Positions 2,650 to 9,505 of a stretch of 9,505 nucleotides of DNA are shown here, piece after piece. Under the pieces are notes generated by a model. It did no database searches. It worked only from the letters and a program-made list of their open reading frames with translations, and was not told where the DNA came from. Numbering within the stretch: the first letter of the stretch is position 1; the number at the start of each line of letters is the position of its first letter. The DNA is from Rickettsia typhi (lineage in GTDB: Bacteria > Pseudomonadota > Alphaproteobacteria > Rickettsiales > Rickettsiaceae): contig CAMCMD010000031.1 of the NCBI GenBank assembly GCA_945875975.1, forward strand, positions 1-9,505, given 5' to 3'. The position numbers and the translations under genes are program-made.

Positions 2650-2685
2650 TTTGGACACTAAAATACTTAAATCTTGGTAAGAATT

Positions 2686-4452
2686 ATGACTAATGAAAAG
2701 CTGAAGACACCTTCTACATTTTTTTTTATAAAAGAATCCTTAAAGCCATATAAATGGTATTTTCTTGTTATATTTATATGCTATTTTCTAAGTGGGTTTC
2801 ATGGAACAATTCAGTCCTTGATTACCAAAATAATTGTAGACAATGTAGCTTTTGCAGGGATAAATGGTGTTGAGTCTAATGTAGTAATTCCATCAGTGCT
2901 TTTTATATTAGAGTTTCAATTATTTCTACTATTACGTAGAATAACTAATTATATGACCTGGAAAGTTTATCCAAAACTTAATAATAATATTATAAGCCAT
3001 GCCTTTGAATATATACATCGTCACCCTGCAGCATATTTTAATAACAAATTATCAGGTACTATTGCTAGCGATATCAACATATTAAATGAAAATATTATTG
3101 TTATTCAGGAAAATGTCCTCTCAATAATTAGCGCTCTTGTTCTAATAGTCTCATCCTTAGTATGTATGTATGTTATACACCCTCTTTTTTCACTGGGACT
3201 CCTCTGTTTTATGATCTATTTTGTATCTATCAATATATTTTTCTCAAAGAAAATTAATTTCCTCACAGATAGCTATGTACAATGTAAATCTAGTCTACAA
3301 GGCAATATTGTAGATAGTATTTCAAATTCTCAAAGCGTGAGATTATTTGCACAAAAACAATATGAGATATCTCATGTGAATATATTACTACATAAACTAG
3401 GACATGCCTTTCAGAAACGATGGAAATGTTTGATGAATATGTGGTTTATTCAAATGTTGTTTATCCTCTTCTTTTTTTCTTTCACTCTATATATTTTAAA
3501 TACTCTTAGTAACCAAGGACTACTTAAAGCTGGAGACTTTGCTCTTATTTTAGGCTTAACTTTATTTATGAATGATAGTTTAGGGGGCTTAACCAGCCAA
3601 ATTGAGACAATAAACAGCGCTTATGGATCATGCAGCCATAGCCTAAAAAATATCTATGAACCAGTAACACTACTAGATATTCCTAATGCTTCTGAATTAG
3701 TGATAGCGAGAGGTAGAATAATTTTTGATAAGGTAAATTTTTGCTATCCAGATTCTAATATCAAATTTGATTATGGTTCCTTAATTATTGAACCAGGTAC
3801 CAAAGTTGGATTAGTAGGATATTCTGGTTCTGGCAAATCAACTTTTATTAATCTTTTATTACGATTTTACGCTTTGGATCAAGGCAAAATCTTAATTGAT
3901 AATCATGATATAAGTGCAGTAACTAAATCTTCTCTTTATAATAATTTTGCTTTAATTCCTCAAGATCCTTCTTTATTTCATCGTTCAATTTTTGAAAACA
4001 TTAAATATGGAAATAGTAATGCAGACAAGCATATGATTATTGAGGCAGCAAAAAAAGCAGGCGCTCATGAATTCATCATGAATCTGCCACAAGAATATGA
4101 CACTCTTGTAGGTGAACGTGGGATTAAACTATCGGGCGGACAAAGGCAGAGAATTGCAATTGCAAGGGCCCTAGTAAGAAATCCCATGATTATAATAATG
4201 GATGAGGCAACTTCTCAACTTGATTCCATTACGGAAACTGACATTCAATATAATCTTAGTAATATTACCAAAAATAAAACTGCTATAATAATCTCACATA
4301 GATTATCTACTTTACTTAAAATGGACAGAATTCTAGTATTTGATCAAGGAAAAATTGTTCAAGATGGAAAGCACGAGGAACTTGTAAAAAAACCAGGGTT
4401 ATATAAAACTCTCTGGAAAACACAAGTAGGCAGTTTTTTTGTTGAGAATTAA
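2686..4452 (+). CDS. ABC exporter, fused membrane and ATPase domains (type I, MsbA-like)
   Basis: This is a half-transporter of 588 residues expected to work as a homodimer in the inner membrane, exporting a lipid, peptide or drug-like substrate. Six hydrophobic segments lie at roughly 18-38, 66-86, 141-164, 166-186, 248-272 and 280-296. The nucleotide-binding domain starts near 343. It has Walker A GYSGSGKST (378-386), Q-loop glutamine at 426 in PQDPSLF, signature LSGGQRQR (482-489), Walker B IIIMDEA (502-508) and H-loop His538 in SHRL. All catalytic elements are present. ATG 2686 is preferred to a TTG 12 bases upstream, although the ribosome-binding sequence (GGTAAG) is weak. Position next to a SyrP-like dioxygenase and MbtH suggests export of a peptide metabolite, but sequence alone cannot separate this from a general lipid or multidrug exporter. 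Confidence 0.9.
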   Translation: MTNEKLKTPSTFFFIKESLKPYKWYFLVIFICYFLSGFHGTIQSLITKIIVDNVAFAGINGVESNVVIPSVLFILEFQLFLLLRRITNYMTWKVYPKLNNNIISHAFEYIHRHPAAYFNNKLSGTIASDINILNENIIVIQENVLSIISALVLIVSSLVCMYVIHPLFSLGLLCFMIYFVSINIFFSKKINFLTDSYVQCKSSLQGNIVDSISNSQSVRLFAQKQYEISHVNILLHKLGHAFQKRWKCLMNMWFIQMLFILFFFSFTLYILNTLSNQGLLKAGDFALILGLTLFMNDSLGGLTSQIETINSAYGSCSHSLKNIYEPVTLLDIPNASELVIARGRIIFDKVNFCYPDSNIKFDYGSLIIEPGTKVGLVGYSGSGKSTFINLLLRFYALDQGKILIDNHDISAVTKSSLYNNFALIPQDPSLFHRSIFENIKYGNSNADKHMIIEAAKKAGAHEFIMNLPQEYDTLVGERGIKLSGGQRQRIAIARALVRNPMIIIMDEATSQLDSITETDIQYNLSNITKNKTAIIISHRLSTLLKMDRILVFDQGKIVQDGKHEELVKKPGLYKTLWKTQVGSFFVEN

Positions 4453-4697: not shown

Positions 4698-5675
4698 ATG
4701 CAACTTATAGAAGGCAATATTCAAACAAATTTTGTTATAACCACAGATAATAAAGTTTCTAAAACTCTAATAGTTATTACTCCCGATGAATGTTCAGGAT
4801 TTCAATATCTTGAATGGCTTCAACATAATAAGGAAGCCATAGAGCATTGTATACATCTTCATGGTGGTATTTTACTAAGAAATTTTGGCATTAACTCAGT
4901 TTCTGAATTTAACAAATCAGTATTAAGTTTATACCCAGATCTTTTAGATTATGTTTATCGTTCAACTCCACGCACTAAAATTGGAGGAAAAATTTATACC
5001 GCTACTGAATATCCATCCGATAGATCAATTCCTTTCCATAATGAAAATTCATACTCTAGCTCATGGCCTGCAAGAATTTGCTTTTTTTGTGCTGTATCGC
5101 CTAAAAATGGTGGGGAAACCCCAATCGCAGATAGTAGAGCAATATATAAAAAAATAGATGAATCAATCAAATTAAAATTTGAAGAAAAGGGCGTTTTATA
5201 TGTTAGAAATTATACTCCAGGCATAGATTTGAGTTGGCAAGAGGTTTTCCAAACTGAAAATAAAGACGATGTAAATAAGTTTTGTGCAGAAAACGATATT
5301 GAAGCCATTTGGAATAAACAAGGCCCAGAGTTAACAACTAAACAAATATGCCAAGCCTCATATATTCACCCTATCACCCTGGAAAAAGTTTGGTTCAATC
5401 AGGCGCATTTATTTCATGCTTCAGCTTTATCTAGCAATGATATAGATACTTTACAGAAAGAATTAGGAGAACAATACCTTCCAAGGAACACTTTTTATGG
5501 AGATGGTGAACTTATTGAGCTTGAAGTGCTTGAACATATTCGCAATATTTATGAAGAGGAAAAAGTTAAATTTAAATGGCAAAAAGGAGACTTAATGATC
5601 CTAGATAATGTACTTACTGCACATAGTAGAGAGCCTTTTGAGGGAGAAAGAAAAATAGTCGTGGCTATGGCATAA
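4698..5675 (+). CDS. SyrP-like TauD/TfdA-family Fe(II)/2-oxoglutarate dioxygenase
   Basis: The fold is that of TauD/clavaminate-synthase-like oxygenases, which couple decarboxylation of 2-oxoglutarate to hydroxylation of a substrate. The iron ligands are visible as H114-x-E116 in PFHNENSY and H309 in LTAHSREPF; R318 in GERK is the expected 2-oxoglutarate-binding arginine. PFHNE, WPARICFFC (123-131), GGETPIADSR (138-147) and LSWQEVFQT (178-186) are the hallmarks of the SyrP branch, whose characterised members hydroxylate an amino acid, often carrier-bound aspartate, in non-ribosomal peptide pathways. The facial triad uses Glu rather than Asp, which is common in this subgroup. At 325 residues it is a full-length protein. 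AGGAG ends six bases before ATG 4698. The MbtH gene downstream supports a role in peptide tailoring. The true substrate is unknown. Confidence 0.85.
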   Translation: MQLIEGNIQTNFVITTDNKVSKTLIVITPDECSGFQYLEWLQHNKEAIEHCIHLHGGILLRNFGINSVSEFNKSVLSLYPDLLDYVYRSTPRTKIGGKIYTATEYPSDRSIPFHNENSYSSSWPARICFFCAVSPKNGGETPIADSRAIYKKIDESIKLKFEEKGVLYVRNYTPGIDLSWQEVFQTENKDDVNKFCAENDIEAIWNKQGPELTTKQICQASYIHPITLEKVWFNQAHLFHASALSSNDIDTLQKELGEQYLPRNTFYGDGELIELEVLEHIRNIYEEEKVKFKWQKGDLMILDNVLTAHSREPFEGERKIVVAMA

Positions 5676-5998
5676 CCTATACTTAGAAATTTTATAATTG
5701 TAGCAAGATTCCGTAATAACTTTGATATTGGAGCTCCATTTTAACCTTTAATCCATGGTATGTGCTAAAAGCTAACCTATAACATACTCAACAAAAATTG
5801 TGTTACTGATTTATAGTTTATATTTAGCTATCTCCTGCCTATAATATTTATGAGAATTAAATGCCTCTACGAATAATTTATAAAAATAATTGTTTTAATT
5901 TTTGACTTTACTATACTTAAAGACTACAGTTTTCTTACAGTAATTTATAAAATTTAAGAAGAGACAATTTTAGATATAATATGCAAAAGGATATATAT
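5676..5998 (+). other. Intergenic control region before the small-protein/MbtH pair
   Basis: About 320 AT-rich bases contain no open frame worth calling and no RNA gene that I recognise. Several promoter-like elements occur: TATAAT at 5840-5845 with no good -35; TTGTTT (5890-5895) with TATACT (5912-5917) at 16-base spacing; TTGACT (5902-5907) with TACAGT (5925-5930) at 17-base spacing; and TATAAT at 5975-5980. A loose inverted repeat, GTATGT with ACATAC about 20 bases later, lies around 5759-5786. The region separates the dioxygenase from the next genes, so they are probably transcribed independently. Confidence 0.45.
5890..5930 (+). promoter_or_regulatory. Overlapping promoter candidates for the small-protein/MbtH unit
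   Basis: Two overlapping sigma-70-like arrangements are present. One is TTGTTT, 16 bases, then TATACT (5912-5917, five of six). The other is TTGACT (5902-5907), 17 bases, then TACAGT (5925-5930, four of six). Either would give a leader of about 60-80 bases before ATG 5999. Confidence 0.35.
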
Positions 5999-6328
5999 AT
6001 GATTAATGAATTAGTAAAAAGATTAAGTGAGGATAAACATGAAGTAATTATAGGTTATAAGGAGGAAGATGGTGCTGAATTAAAGCAGCGTATTGAAGAT
6101 GGATATATATTTATTAAATTTACTCAGACAAAAGGGGGTACAGAATTAGGAATAAATGTAGATTTAAAAAAAACTAATTTAGAAGAAATAGATTTTAATA
6201 AAGGCAATGGAATATTGCATTTAGAGGGTACTACAAATCTTAATTATAATTCAGTAAGATGTATAGCTGATATTGACATATCATCAAGGCAAGGTTTTGG
6301 ATACCTCCAAGTATTATCGGAAGAATAG
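5999..6328 (+). CDS. Unrecognised 109-residue protein encoded next to MbtH
   Basis: I do not recognise a family. The protein is acidic and soluble, with no signal peptide or membrane segment. It begins with a short amphipathic helix (INELVKRLSED) and then looks rich in beta strands: EVIIGYK, GYIFIKFTQTKGGTELGINVDL, GILHLEGTTNLNYNSVRCIADIDIS. The alternating pattern and the glycine turns suggest a small beta-sheet or barrel. ATG 5999 is chosen because AAAAGG (5985-5990) sits eight bases before it. An in-frame ATG at 5981 would add six residues, but it lies directly after a TATAAT and has no ribosome-binding site at normal spacing. It ends 43 bases before the MbtH gene with no obvious terminator between, so the two are probably cotranscribed and may act together. 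Function is unknown. Confidence 0.7.
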   Translation: MINELVKRLSEDKHEVIIGYKEEDGAELKQRIEDGYIFIKFTQTKGGTELGINVDLKKTNLEEIDFNKGNGILHLEGTTNLNYNSVRCIADIDISSRQGFGYLQVLSEE

Positions 6329-6371
6329 AAGTAGAGTGCAGCATAAATTATAATAAATAAATGAGAAAATA

Positions 6372-6581
6372 ATGAATGACAATGAAGAATACATATGCCT
6401 AATTAATGATGAGGAACAATACTCTATTTGGTTTTCATGGAAAGAAATACCATTAGGATGGAAAAGAGTGGGCCCAAAAAGCTGCAAAGAAGAGGTTTTG
6501 AAATATATTGAGGAAGTGTGGCAAGACATGCGCCCTAAAAGCTTAAGGGATAAGGCATTGGCTGAAAACTCTTCAGTGTAA
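6372..6581 (+). CDS. MbtH-family protein (NRPS adenylation-domain partner)
   Basis: MbtH-like proteins are about 70 residues long; they bind adenylation domains of non-ribosomal peptide synthetases and are often needed for their solubility or amino-acid activation. This 69-residue protein matches the family core: INDEEQYSIW (11-20), PLGW (27-30), VGPKS (33-37), and YIEEVWQDMRPKSL (45-58). The three conserved tryptophans (W20, W30, W50) and the MRP motif are present. Two deviations stand out: F21 where Pro normally follows the first Trp, and Val where Cys is usual in the CLxYIE helix. A weak GAG (6363-6365) precedes ATG 6372. No NRPS lies in the window, so its partner must be encoded elsewhere, or the protein is an orphan. 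The family call is very secure; activity is inferred. Confidence 0.93.
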   Translation: MNDNEEYICLINDEEQYSIWFSWKEIPLGWKRVGPKSCKEEVLKYIEEVWQDMRPKSLRDKALAENSSV

Positions 6582-6600
6582 ATAATGATTAAGCATTATT
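6581..6600 (+). terminator. AT-rich hairpin after the MbtH gene
   Basis: AATAATG (6581-6587) and CATTATT (6594-6600) form a perfect seven-pair stem with a six-base loop, and an AT-rich stretch with TATTTTT follows. The stem has only one G-C pair, so termination would be weak and partial read-through into the glycosyltransferase gene is likely. Confidence 0.3.
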
Positions 6601-6631
6601 GTAATATTATTTTTAAAACTATGGAGTTTAT

Positions 6632-7774
6632 ATGATAAAAAAATCTTTTATTATTTTATTTTCAGCAGCGATTATATATCTAGTAGTGCCTACTGCTGTC
6701 GTACTTTACAATTTTCAGTATTCACCAGATATATGGGAGGCCAAACGTCATGGAAAGCGTATAATAGGCTTTTACAGTGTGCAAAATGGAGGTGGAGAGT
6801 ATGTTATATATAAGCGTACACTTGAAGCATGTAAAAAAATGGGTATTGCCTATCTTGGTGCTGCTTTTAATGAAAGATATTCAACTTCTCCATTACTAAA
6901 ATGGCCTATTATTCTTGCTTCAGAAATTTTGTATTATATTTTTAAGCCATCTTTTAATCTTGTTTTGACTCATTTAGGAGAGCTTCTACCCAAGGGATAT
7001 AATGTATTATATATTAATCTTCCAACCACATATCTGATGTCAGATCCCTACACCTTTTATCCTCAATTTAAACATGTGACTTTATTTAATGCTTATGCCG
7101 ATATACGTAGCATATCTATGGGAGAAAATCCTGAATTTCTTACGGCTTTGAGGTTAGTTAGAAATGATGAACCTCCATTTATTCCATTATATATAGCAAT
7201 GAATGATGTTAAGCTCATTCTGAATGATAAACTGAATGTTGCACTTATTACTGGCACATTATGGGGAGGCTGGAGGTCTAGCAATAAATTTAAGCGTGTT
7301 TTGGCAAGTTTAGCAGAAGATGGGTTACTTGAAGCGTACGGCGCCAGTGAATATTTTGGTTTTTTGAAAAAGAAATATCATGGGCCTTTCAACGAGGAAA
7401 CGCCTGAAACTGAACTATTAGATATTGGTAGAAAATATGCTATATCTTTAATTGCTCACACAGCTGAACACATATCTGAAGAAATACCAACTTCACGCAT
7501 ATCAGAGGGTATATGCTCTGGGGCTATCGTTATAAGTGATATGCAACCTTTTATTATGCGCTATTTTGGTGATAGTGTTTTATATTTTGATCAAACTAAA
7601 TCGGAAGCTTCTATATATTCCCAAATACGCGAACATATACTTTGGGTTAGAAATAATCCAGCGCTAGCTCATGAAAAAATTCAAAAATCATATGATATAT
7701 GGCAAAAGAATTTCACGATAGAGAAGCAATTACAAAATTTGATACATAAATTAGATCATATAATTAAGAATTGA
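6632..7774 (+). CDS. Membrane-anchored glycosyltransferase-like protein (GT-B C-terminal domain)
   Basis: The 380-residue protein starts with MIKK and a single hydrophobic segment (about 5-27), which reads as an uncleaved signal anchor. The C-terminal half resembles a group 1 GT-B nucleotide-sugar-binding domain. TSRISEGICSGAIVISD (287-303) followed by FGDSVLYFD (312-320) fits the pattern [RK]xxEaxxxGxxvIxD...G.xxlyfd found in CgeB-like and related transferases, with E292 in the position of the usual sugar-nucleotide-contacting glutamate. The N-terminal half has no motif I can name; LNVALITGTLWGGWRSSNKFKR (201-222) probably opens the second Rossmann domain. GGAG (6623-6626) sits five bases before the ATG. 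It follows the MbtH gene by 50 bases and may be in the same transcript. It could glycosylate a secondary metabolite, or build lipopolysaccharide and be there by chance. Confidence 0.6.
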   Translation: MIKKSFIILFSAAIIYLVVPTAVVLYNFQYSPDIWEAKRHGKRIIGFYSVQNGGGEYVIYKRTLEACKKMGIAYLGAAFNERYSTSPLLKWPIILASEILYYIFKPSFNLVLTHLGELLPKGYNVLYINLPTTYLMSDPYTFYPQFKHVTLFNAYADIRSISMGENPEFLTALRLVRNDEPPFIPLYIAMNDVKLILNDKLNVALITGTLWGGWRSSNKFKRVLASLAEDGLLEAYGASEYFGFLKKKYHGPFNEETPETELLDIGRKYAISLIAHTAEHISEEIPTSRISEGICSGAIVISDMQPFIMRYFGDSVLYFDQTKSEASIYSQIREHILWVRNNPALAHEKIQKSYDIWQKNFTIEKQLQNLIHKLDHIIKN

Positions 7775-7958: not shown

Positions 7959-8450
7959 ATGCCTATAGACAATATTACTTTTTCCCAAAAACAAGAAAGG
8001 TTATTTGACGAGAGATTATCTACAAAACTAAATCCTAAAAACAAATTATATAAACTAAGGGATTTAGTAAATTGGTCTGAACTTGAAGCTCTGGCATTGC
8101 CTAACATTGAAATCAAGCAATTTGGTAGAAATAAGAAAGATCATAGAGTAATGCTAGCACTAACAATGCTTCAAGCTATGTATAACGGTTCGGATTCATT
8201 TACAGAAGAAGAGCTAAAGGAAAATGTTTATTGGCAATATTTTTGTGGTTATGAATATTTGCAAGCCAATCTTGATGTGTCTGAAGCAACTATACGTAGA
8301 TTTCGTAATGATCTGGGAGAAGAAGGGTATAATGAGATTCTAAAAGAGCTTTTGCGTATAGGTCTCAAAGTTGGTGCACTCAAAAAAAAAGACTTGGGGT
8401 TCTTTGCAGGAAGGTACGGATTTTCTCGGCATGGGTGTCTAGCCCTTTAG
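7959..8450 (+). pseudogene. IS5-family transposase, N-terminal fragment
   Basis: The first roughly 146 residues (to KKKDL) form the N-terminal DUF772-type domain of an IS5-family transposase: DLVNWSELEALALP (37-50), FGRNKKDHRVMLALTMLQAMYNGSDSFTEEEL with its helical pattern, then SEATIRRFRNDLGEEGYNEILKELLRIGLKVGAL. The DDE catalytic domain should follow, but from 8396 the frame reads into the Tn3-type inverted repeat. It adds an unrelated 17-residue tail (GFFAGRYGFSRHGCLAL) before the stop. Family members are usually around 300 residues or more, so this product lacks all catalytic residues. The fragment could still bind DNA ends, but transposition activity is lost unless a complete copy exists elsewhere. 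The remaining half should lie beyond the far end of the transposon. Confidence 0.82.
8396..8433 (+). repeat. Left terminal inverted repeat of the Tn3-type transposon
   Basis: Tn3-family ends are about 38 bases long and begin GGGG. This stretch begins GGGGTTC exactly where the IS5-like coding frame breaks. Its middle (CAGGAAGGTACGGATTT, 8407-8423) resembles, from memory, the Tn1546 end. The matching right repeat is outside the window, so the exact inner limit is uncertain. Confidence 0.6.
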
Positions 8451-8578
8451 TTATAAGCCATACAGAGGACGAGTTGATTTTAAAATGATGAGGTGGTGGT
8501 GCCTTGAAACCCTTTCAGATTAAGGGGGGCAGCTTTTGGATGTTTTTCATGGCTTTTTGAAAAGTAGATTTGTGCCTA
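8451..8578. other. Non-coding stretch between transposon end and resolvase
   Basis: These 128 bases contain no complete gene. Two short open stretches on the plus strand, about 8443-8523 and 8527-8606, encode peptides rich in aromatic and hydrophobic residues. They could be remains of a broken passenger gene, but I recognise neither. A run of six Gs lies at 8524-8529. Confidence 0.3.
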
Positions 8579-9139
8579 TTATTTTGCTAGTCCTGCTGCG
8601 ATAGCTCGGTAATATACAGAGCGGCTAATCCCGACCATAATACAAATCTTAGTCACAGAAAATTCTTCTGACTGCATTAGTGATTTTAATGTTTTTAGTT
8701 TATCTGTCGTAAGAGCTTTAGGTCTTCCGCCTTTCCTTCCTTTACTATGGGCTGCATCTAAACCTGCTTTAACTCGCTCCTTTATTAGTTCTCGTTCCAT
8801 CTCAGAAAATGCTGCACACATACTAAAGAGCAGCATTTCCATTGGAGTTGTAGTATCGATGTTATTTTCTAAAGAGATAAACTCAATACCTTTAACTTTA
8901 AAACCATTTATAAGATCAATAAGCTTTATCATCCTTCGTCCTAAACGGTCAAGACGGACAACACAAATAGTGTCGCCTTTTCTTAGTTTGCCCATTAGAA
9001 GATTTAATTGTACCCTATTGTCTTTAGCGCCGGAAATTTTCTCTTGAAAAATTTCGTTACAACCAGCCGCAGTTAATTTTTGTATTTGCACATCTAAGCT
9101 TTGATCATTTTTTGAGACCCTTGCATAACCAAATTTCAT
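8579..9139 (-). CDS. tnpR: Serine resolvase of the Tn3-type transposon
   Basis: This 186-residue small serine recombinase resolves cointegrates formed during replicative transposition by recombining two res sites. It opens with KFGYARVSKNDQ, with the nucleophile at S9 and a catalytic arginine at R7. VVRLDRLGRR (60-69) carries the other active-site arginines R65 and R68 with D64. SEMERELIKERVKAGL (112-127) is the long dimer-interface helix. The C-terminus (about 140-183) has GRPKAL followed by a helix-turn-helix, EEFSVTKICIMVGISRSVYYRAI, for DNA binding. The length and all key residues are normal, so it looks active. An AAGGA ribosome-binding sequence lies about seven bases before the ATG. It diverges from the transposase gene across the res region. 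An invertase role is less likely given this context. Confidence 0.93.
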   Translation of the reverse strand: MKFGYARVSKNDQSLDVQIQKLTAAGCNEIFQEKISGAKDNRVQLNLLMGKLRKGDTICVVRLDRLGRRMIKLIDLINGFKVKGIEFISLENNIDTTTPMEMLLFSMCAAFSEMERELIKERVKAGLDAAHSKGRKGGRPKALTTDKLKTLKSLMQSEEFSVTKICIMVGISRSVYYRAIAAGLAK

Positions 9140-9307
9140 TTTTATCCTTAGTTTATTAAAATTTCTGTTTCAAAAACCTAAATGATAGGGTATTTTGCTA
9201 TGAAGTCAATTGGTAGTAGTTTTGAAGCGGATTGTTTTAGTTAATAGTTAGGAAAATAGAATTTTGTTTTGGGATGCCAAAACCCTGCGTTTTTGGAATG
9301 GTAAATT
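9140..9307. promoter_or_regulatory. Divergent resolvase/transposase control region, probable res site
   Basis: In Tn3-type elements the space between divergent tnpR and tnpA holds the res recombination site and both promoters, and resolvase binding there represses both genes. The 168 bases here include a short symmetric motif ATAG-9-CTAT (about 9184-9200). A cluster of alternating repeats follows: GTTTTGG (9266-9272), CCAAAAC (9277-9283) and GTTTTTGG (9289-9296). The first two form a perfect seven-pair inverted repeat with a four-base spacer. Exact resolvase subsites cannot be delimited by eye. Confidence 0.5.
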
Positions 9308-9505
9308 ATGGCAAGACTAAGAATTTTATCAGATGATGATTTTGATAAATTATATAAAATACCTAAACTTAATAATGAGGAACGTCAATTTGTTTTTGAA
9401 TTAGATAAGATTGATAAAAACTACTTAAATACAATTAATAGCATTCCTGTAAAAATCAATTATATTTTGAATTTAGGTTATTTTCGTACATCTCAATATT
9501 TCTTT
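9308..9505 (+). CDS. tnpA: Tn3-family transposase, N-terminal part (runs off the window)
   Basis: The frame is open from ATG 9308 to the window end, giving 66 codons without a stop. The sequence matches the start of DUF4158-type Tn3 transposases: ILSDDDFDKLYKIPKLNNEERQFVFELD, then a variable linker, then INYILNLGYFRTSQYFF (about 50-66). In the family this is the N-terminal region that recognises the 38-base ends; the DDE catalytic core lies several hundred residues downstream, and full proteins are near 1000 residues. Translation signals are weak, with GGAATGG about ten bases upstream. The divergent arrangement with the resolvase and the terminal repeat at 8396 confirm the Tn3 context. Whether the full gene is intact cannot be seen. 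Confidence 0.85.
   Translation, partial: MARLRILSDDDFDKLYKIPKLNNEERQFVFELDKIDKNYLNTINSIPVKINYILNLGYFRTSQYFF

Follow-up and report, generated by a model that had tools for sequence, protein, structure and literature searches.

The locus

The window analysed here is the whole stretch of 9,505 nucleotides from Rickettsia typhi (contig CAMCMD010000031.1 of assembly GCA_945875975.1). It has a GC content of 31.8% and carries accessory genes of nonribosomal peptide synthetase (NRPS) systems. Among these is a small gene directly upstream of an MbtH gene, the product of which (p115) is the main subject of this text. The five genes concerned are:

2674..4452, forward strand: MsbA-like ABC exporter of 592 aa, with permease and ATPase in one chain (PF00005, E 7.9e-31; PF00664, E 8.7e-19)
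4698..5675, forward strand: SyrP/TauD-type Fe(II)/2-oxoglutarate dioxygenase, 325 aa (PF02668, E 9.8e-41)
5999..6328, forward strand: p115, predicted CBF-beta-fold protein, 109 aa (PF02312, family alignment, structure model)
6372..6581, forward strand: MbtH-like NRPS accessory protein, 69 aa (PF03621, E 2.4e-15)
6632..7774, forward strand: glycosyltransferase-like protein, 380 aa (PF13524, E 0.0011, 19.4 bits, cut-off 25)

An earlier note on this DNA had reported the dioxygenase, the MbtH protein and a nearby ABC exporter, and the domain matches listed above bear out all three; the exporter gene is intact. The note had placed the MbtH and dioxygenase genes side by side. In fact they are separated by a third gene (stop at 6328), located directly 5' of MbtH. 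This gene, which codes for p115 and had been passed over, is the unusual gene of the locus. The distance from its stop to MbtH is 43 nt, and that from MbtH to the glycosyltransferase-like gene is 50 nt. For the latter, the open reading frame (ORF) reported earlier exists, but its assignment to a glycosyltransferase family is weak, the score staying below the cut-off. The gene has 11 homologues at E<=1e-5, itself included, and no relative of it occurs among the 112 loci compared; its membership of the peptide locus is uncertain. The exporter matches the MsbA_rel model with an E-value of 5.1e-101, which is under the cut-off of that model, and it probably provides the export function of the locus.

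As the earlier note had stated, no synthetase is seen here: a Pfam scan detected a condensation (C), adenylation (A) or thiolation (T) domain in none of the ten window ORFs that were tested. The window thus holds at most part of an NRPS cluster, since a complete one would have C, A and T domains. No tRNA genes or Rfam families were found in the window, and a promoter scan was uninformative (13 sites, 20.7 expected).

The p115 family and its predicted fold

Two start codons are available for p115, ATG 5981 (115 aa) and ATG 5999 (109 aa). The second is the likelier start: it matches the family alignment and has AAGGA seven bases before it. When read from ATG 5981, the protein scores 25.6 bits against the Pfam family CBF_beta (PF02312; cut-off 25).

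A search of 5.8 billion proteins yielded 170 candidates, 167 of which are relatives. Of the 120 relatives listed, most carry a precomputed PF02312 assignment; one of them is from "unclassified Candidatus Tisiphia" (Candidatus is abbreviated Ca. below). In two alignments of the family, 35/36 and 22/25 members match CBF_beta at E<=0.1, the best at 1.6e-8. Among the loci compared (L numbers; genomes have G numbers), the PF02312 cut-off is passed by the proteins from L171, L172, L175, L176, L178 and L180 and not by those from L113 and L179, while that from L126 has no match. Some other assignments were rejected. Matches of family members to Pfam PsbU are weak (11/36, best 5.5e-4; 3/25, best 0.0022), and all PDB sequence matches of p115 (ankyrin proteins, R.SwaI, a thioesterase) have E >= 0.26 and are attributed to chance.

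p115 is predicted to take the CBF-beta fold; the AlphaFold model agrees with the Pfam family and with a profile comparison. CBF-beta and p115 are 24-27% identical and collinear, and the predicted fold is shared over the whole length. The loop G46-G47-T48-E/D49-L50 is conserved in the p115 family, as is N82, which matches Asn104 of CBF-beta. The two thus have in common the predicted fold, the glycine-threonine loop and the Asn104/Asn82 position. CBF-beta is also a small component of a larger system, as p115 would be. They differ in that p115 is bacterial, has only about 109 aa, lacks the C-terminal extension and is linked to MbtH and NRPS genes rather than to RUNX. We name p115 a CBF-beta-fold protein, not CBF-beta. 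Among open-licence PMC papers, no description of the p115 family was found, and none that brings MbtH together with core-binding factor, or CBF beta together with bacteria, horizontal gene transfer and Rickettsia.

A small barrel might instead bind a ligand or be catalytic (lipocalin-, thioesterase- or cyclase-like) and act on the peptide or a precursor. In favour of this, Foldseek lists lipocalins (E 0.099) below CBF-beta; a profile search gives the thioesterase SP_1851, at an E-value of 0.33; and the polar T48 is among the invariant residues. We consider such a function of p115 improbable.

Linkage of p115 to MbtH

The MbtH protein of the window reaches 56.1 bits against PF03621 (cut-off 27). 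The motifs NDEEQYSIW, PLGW and DMRPKSL are visible in it and are, as we take it, the signature of the MbtH family.

The relative position of p115 and MbtH was mapped in 31 rows, which correspond to 21 distinct loci after dropping ten re-fetched copies (L097, L098, L103, L124, L125, L127, L128, L174, L177 and L181, the last being the Nostoc locus L173). Six loci are alphaproteobacterial (the window, L012, L013, L113, L123 and L126), five are gammaproteobacterial (L006, L129, L130, L176 and L179), three are acidobacterial (L175, L178 and L180, with Ca. Angelobacter presumably belonging to the acidobacterial phylum) and seven are cyanobacterial (L171-L173 and L182-L185). At 18 of the 21 loci (17/20 without the window), the p115 gene either precedes MbtH or is joined to it in a fusion, and this linkage extends over all four bacterial groups. 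In 15/21 cases (the window, L006, L012, L013, L113, L123, L126, L129, L171, L172, L173, L176, L179, L182 and L183), MbtH lies downstream of p115 in the same orientation, no more than 332 nt away; at L185, the distance is 624 nt. Two loci of one Ca. Angelobacter genome code for natural fusions (L175, 1495-2094; L180, 1477-2088), with MbtH as the N-terminal and p115 as the C-terminal part, and all four domain matches are above the Pfam cut-offs. In Aliikangiella marina and in a metagenome-assembled genome (MAG) of Alteromonadaceae, the gene order is p115-MbtH-thioesterase, and in Gloeocapsa PCC 7428 a single gene run comprises the pair, two NRPS genes and a thioester reductase gene.

MbtH-like proteins (MLPs) are chaperones of adenylation domains according to PMC7593251. 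MLPs and p115 are both small and clustered with NRPS genes, and a helper role, established for the former, is proposed for the latter. They are nevertheless distinct, since an MbtH domain was found in none of the seven stand-alone p115 proteins scanned (six have CBF_beta alone, one has no match). The NCBI name "MbtH domain protein" for the p115 homologues WP_105218327.1 and WP_041919517.1 is therefore not borne out by Pfam; it may have been carried over from naturally fused MbtH-p115 proteins or from the adjacent gene. The label is seen at L171 (12001-12324) and L172 (12001-12321).

A separate small family of about 112 aa ("GKYCKAY") is encoded directly 5' of p115 in all seven cyanobacterial loci (L184, 1849-2196; also L171, L172, L173, L182, L183 and L185). 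It also occurs near p115, there on the 3' side, in the acidobacterial L175, and it is absent from the window. Two members were scanned, neither of which has a Pfam match.

The taxonomic spread bears on the idea that the p115 gene was acquired from animal hosts and codes for a symbiont effector directed at RUNX-type regulators of the host. Judged by their names, several carriers are intracellular bacteria (Ca. Tisiphia, Ca. Bandiella and the order of the Holosporales MAGs). CBF-beta is otherwise known from animals, as stated in PMC2527000. However, p115 is also encoded in seven cyanobacterial loci, in Aliikangiella, in the Alteromonadaceae MAG and in three acidobacterial loci. It is linked to MbtH in 10 of these 12 loci from non-symbiont groups (L184 has no MbtH in the fetched stretch, L178 is cut by the contig end), and the bacterial family is diverse, with 34-75% identity to the window protein. 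Because bacteria outside the symbiont groups share the p115-MbtH linkage, the animal-derived effector is set aside as highly implausible.

The dioxygenase and the NRPS context of its relatives

The PF02668 match spans residues 34-323 of the dioxygenase. The residues H114, E116, H309 and R318 are invariant in 17/17 rows (the window protein and those from L001-L016), so that the HxE...H...R triad, recognized in the earlier note, is intact.

Relatives are drawn from the best 80 of 132 found by a search of genome contigs. L001-L016 represent 12 genomes, and L001-L014, with 54-65% identity to the window protein, represent 10. Thirteen of these 14 closest loci are titled Alphaproteobacteria, Holosporales or Paracaedibacteraceae. 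The exception is L006, titled only "bacterium", the genome of which (G004) is considered gammaproteobacterial because G433 and G441, from the same order, are in the gammaproteobacterial class sample. MbtH is encoded within the fetched stretch at 13/14 loci and an ABC-transporter homologue at 8/14. Condensation domains were found in 9/10 genomes for L001-L014 and in 11/12 for L001-L016, the latter comprising eight of nine alphaproteobacterial-titled genomes (all except G010) together with each of the three from Gammaproteobacteria (G004, G011 and G012). MbtH is present in 10/12 genomes, which are the nine alphaproteobacterial ones and G004; it is missing from G011 and G012. Other genes near the dioxygenase relatives code for phosphopantetheinyl transferases (PPTases), a thioesterase, aminotransferases, HPPD/hydroxymandelate-synthase-like proteins and an FMN dehydrogenase.

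Since the relatives are located next to NRPS accessory genes in NRPS-bearing genomes, the window genes belong to NRPS biology, which is common among these relatives. This agrees with the earlier note in that the locus is a piece of NRPS biology. The same note had called such genes unexpected in bacteria of this type, a view that does not hold given the condensation domains in the genomes of the closest relatives and the published cases from Rickettsiales described below.

SyrP, which we take to be a carrier-protein-dependent aspartate hydroxylase of the TauD family, shares the family and the HxE...H...R triad with the window dioxygenase, and NRPS genes accompany the relatives of the latter. 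In contrast to the SyrP case, no synthetase was found in the window. The solved relatives of the window dioxygenase at E<=1e-5 are At3g21360 (1y0z) and 9yut, not SyrP.

A few neighbourhoods have additional features. In two alphaproteobacterial MAGs (L004 and L009), a hydroxymandelate-synthase-like gene and an aminotransferase gene lie near the dioxygenase, at L004 together with an FMN dehydrogenase; these presumably are a 4-hydroxyphenylglycine-type set. Neighbours at L013 include a CmlA-type hydroxylase, an asparagine synthase, a racemase, a PPTase and a 2OG oxygenase, the last of which is also found at L006. Two small genomes encode TIR-domain and Fic-domain proteins close to their NRPS accessory genes (L012, 2310-3671; L006, 11608-13152).

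NRPS genes in Rickettsiales and mobile DNA

NRPS genes have been reported from Rickettsiales. Five NRPS/polyketide synthase systems are described from 4/8 Megaira genomes (PMC10132079), NRPS are known from MegNEIS296, RiCimp (Ca. Tisiphia) and R. buchneri (PMC9098888), and NRPS-domain proteins are expressed in Megaera (PMC13134042). The window resembles the clusters of Megaira, Tisiphia RiCimp and R. buchneri as a possible case of NRPS genes in Rickettsiales, with that of R. buchneri being on a mobile element. It differs in that no synthetase was seen in it. MbtH is not mentioned in PMC10132079 or PMC9098888, nor is core binding factor in PMC9098888. For "Holosporales" combined with nonribosomal peptides, the open-licence PMC search gave off-topic papers only.

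The nearest annotated parallel is provided by a Ca. Bandiella numerosa plasmid (NZ_CP104165.1; L113, L121 and L122), the p115-MbtH DNA of which is 66.9% identical to that of the window. This plasmid codes for a PPTase, SbnA (sbnA), SbnB (sbnB), an hppD-like gene product, the p115-MbtH pair and synthetases, with Tn3-family transposases interspersed. F-type transfer genes are found elsewhere on the record.

The window itself contains mobile DNA on both sides of the genes discussed:

2-148: IS21-type remnant (istB region), 86% DNA identity to Ca. Megaera plasmids
7959-8450: IS5 transposase fragment, 87.7% DNA identity to a Megaera plasmid
8579-9139: resolvase, 76% protein identity to a Legionella antarctica plasmid
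9308-9505: ORF with N-terminal DUF4158, which we take to be a Tn3-type transposase

The 3' part of the window (7959-9505) is a mosaic of mobile DNA. When the whole window was compared with plasmids at the DNA level, the IS5 copy was the single match. At the other end, the IS21-type remnant seems to cut the 5' end of hom (homoserine dehydrogenase, 151-1425), which codes for 424 aa, compared with 446 aa in the nearest relative.

As an alternative, the locus might be an ordinary NRPS cluster fragment that has strayed or is decaying in the genome of a Rickettsiales-like symbiont, with p115 as a passenger that has no role in peptide synthesis. The lack of synthetase domains in the ten ORFs would fit this, as would the apparent truncation of hom, the IS5 fragment, resolvase and Tn3-type gene downstream, and the fact that NRPS are already known in Rickettsiales. 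On the other hand, the reading frames of p115, MbtH and the dioxygenase are full-length and open end to end, and all three have the fewest changes at codon position 2 and the most at position 3 when compared with relatives. Divergence at codon positions 1/2/3 is 0.38/0.20/0.48 for p115 and 0.32/0.14/0.64 for MbtH (both vs L113) and 0.36/0.20/0.52 for the dioxygenase (vs L009). Moreover, a link to MbtH that repeats across phyla and as fusions is hardly expected of a passenger. We regard this explanation as unlikely, though less so than a ligand-binding or catalytic barrel.

Proposed role of p115

We propose that p115 is a CBF-beta-fold second accessory protein of NRPS that works with MbtH, and assign a probability of about 0.6 to this proposal. 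CBF-beta stabilises RUNX, guards it from degradation and increases its DNA affinity 40-fold (PMC9953914). By analogy to CBF-beta on the RUNX Runt domain, p115 would grip a protein partner via the loop G46-G47-T48-E/D49-L50 and N82. This partner would most likely be the complex of MbtH and the adenylation domain, or MbtH itself. p115 would be non-catalytic and would hold its partner active and soluble. The synthetase would be encoded elsewhere in this genome, the dioxygenase may beta-hydroxylate an amino acid bound to it, and the ABC exporter may carry the peptide product out of the cell.

Several observations weigh against this proposal. With regard to the fold, p115 from the likelier start (ATG 5999) scores 22.4 bits against CBF_beta, below the cut-off of 25, and the profile comparison between p115 and CBF-beta has a probability of just 78%. 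CBF-beta is absent from the profile searches of PDB sequences with p115 (E<=10) and from the PDB search with the single p115 sequence (E<=1). The structure model of the MbtH-p115 fusion has a pTM of 0.59, so that the relative placement of the domains and their docking are not fixed. With regard to the linkage, L130 and L184 carry p115 with MbtH absent from the fetched stretch; L130 has an ORF on the opposite strand (1-588) that is adenylation-domain-like by its motifs. The L178 contig ends 81 nt after p115, and MbtH is thus unseen. The correlation between p115 and MbtH distances (rho 0.63, 18 pairs, 0/2000 permutations as high) is due in part to shared descent. In G412 (L126), which has the p115-MbtH pair, a condensation domain was not detected, but this genome may be incomplete. 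Finally, among the genomes of L001-L014, six whole ones were searched for both genes; all have MbtH and three (G005, G007 and G010) lack p115.

Because these three genomes have MbtH without p115, the latter is an optional companion of MbtH and not generally required. Its distribution is sparse. In the class of G005, a single-sequence search found p115 in 1/385 genomes. With profile A3, it was detected in 3/42, 3/11 and 1/4 genomes of three orders, and with profile A4 in 4/386 genomes from the phylum of a Kamptonema genome and in 8/37 chosen genomes, four of which had been chosen as known carriers. These counts overlap, some genomes being in more than one of them. In the order of G006, condensation domains are present in 2/3 genomes with p115 compared with 11/42 overall.

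If the proposal is correct, MbtH is not the sole small helper of NRPS systems, and the additional one is relevant to heterologous peptide production. For symbiont biology, it is of interest that the same accessory gene pair is present in Rickettsiales, Holosporales-type MAGs and non-symbiont bacteria, partly on plasmids.

A possible origin of animal CBF-beta

According to PMC2527000, sponges and cnidarians have both Runx and CBF-beta, and neither was found in those unicellular protozoans that had been searched by 2008. Runx has since been reported from Capsaspora (PMC10317990). The p115 family is found in four bacterial groups, and therefore a bacterial source of the animal CBF-beta gene is possible. 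It is tempting to speculate that animal CBF-beta, an obligate partner of RUNX transcription factors, descends from a bacterial NRPS accessory protein that acts with MbtH and was passed by associated bacteria to an early animal ancestor, with the gripping face (glycine-threonine loop, Asn104/Asn82) being kept. We consider this scenario doubtful, though somewhat better placed than the passenger explanation. If the proposed role of p115 is right, a CBF-beta-fold family is placed in bacteria and in a defined pathway, which makes the origin of this key developmental and leukaemia-related animal protein testable.

Host placement

Two window genes were rejected as markers for the host. For hom, the best named match is a Gammaproteobacteria MAG (52%) and the nearest other is at 81%; this comparison scored only the 7999 candidates with the most shared words. 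The ABC exporter matches Legionella plasmids at about 41% and Megaera at 38%. The asd gene was used instead. Its best match has 56% identity (407 bits) in Alphaproteobacteria, where 344/372 sampled genomes have a match, and 52% (352 bits) in Gammaproteobacteria (338/355). Trees were computed from the window and the 20 best rows per class, picked by score, and the window is on a long branch. The gammaproteobacterial rows exclude the window with a support of 0.999 (FastTree) and 100 (IQ-TREE). In FastTree, the window is outside all 20 alphaproteobacterial rows (support for the alpha-only split 0.652), a split that is absent in IQ-TREE. The host is likely an intracellular alphaproteobacterium, the probable placement to class level being by asd.

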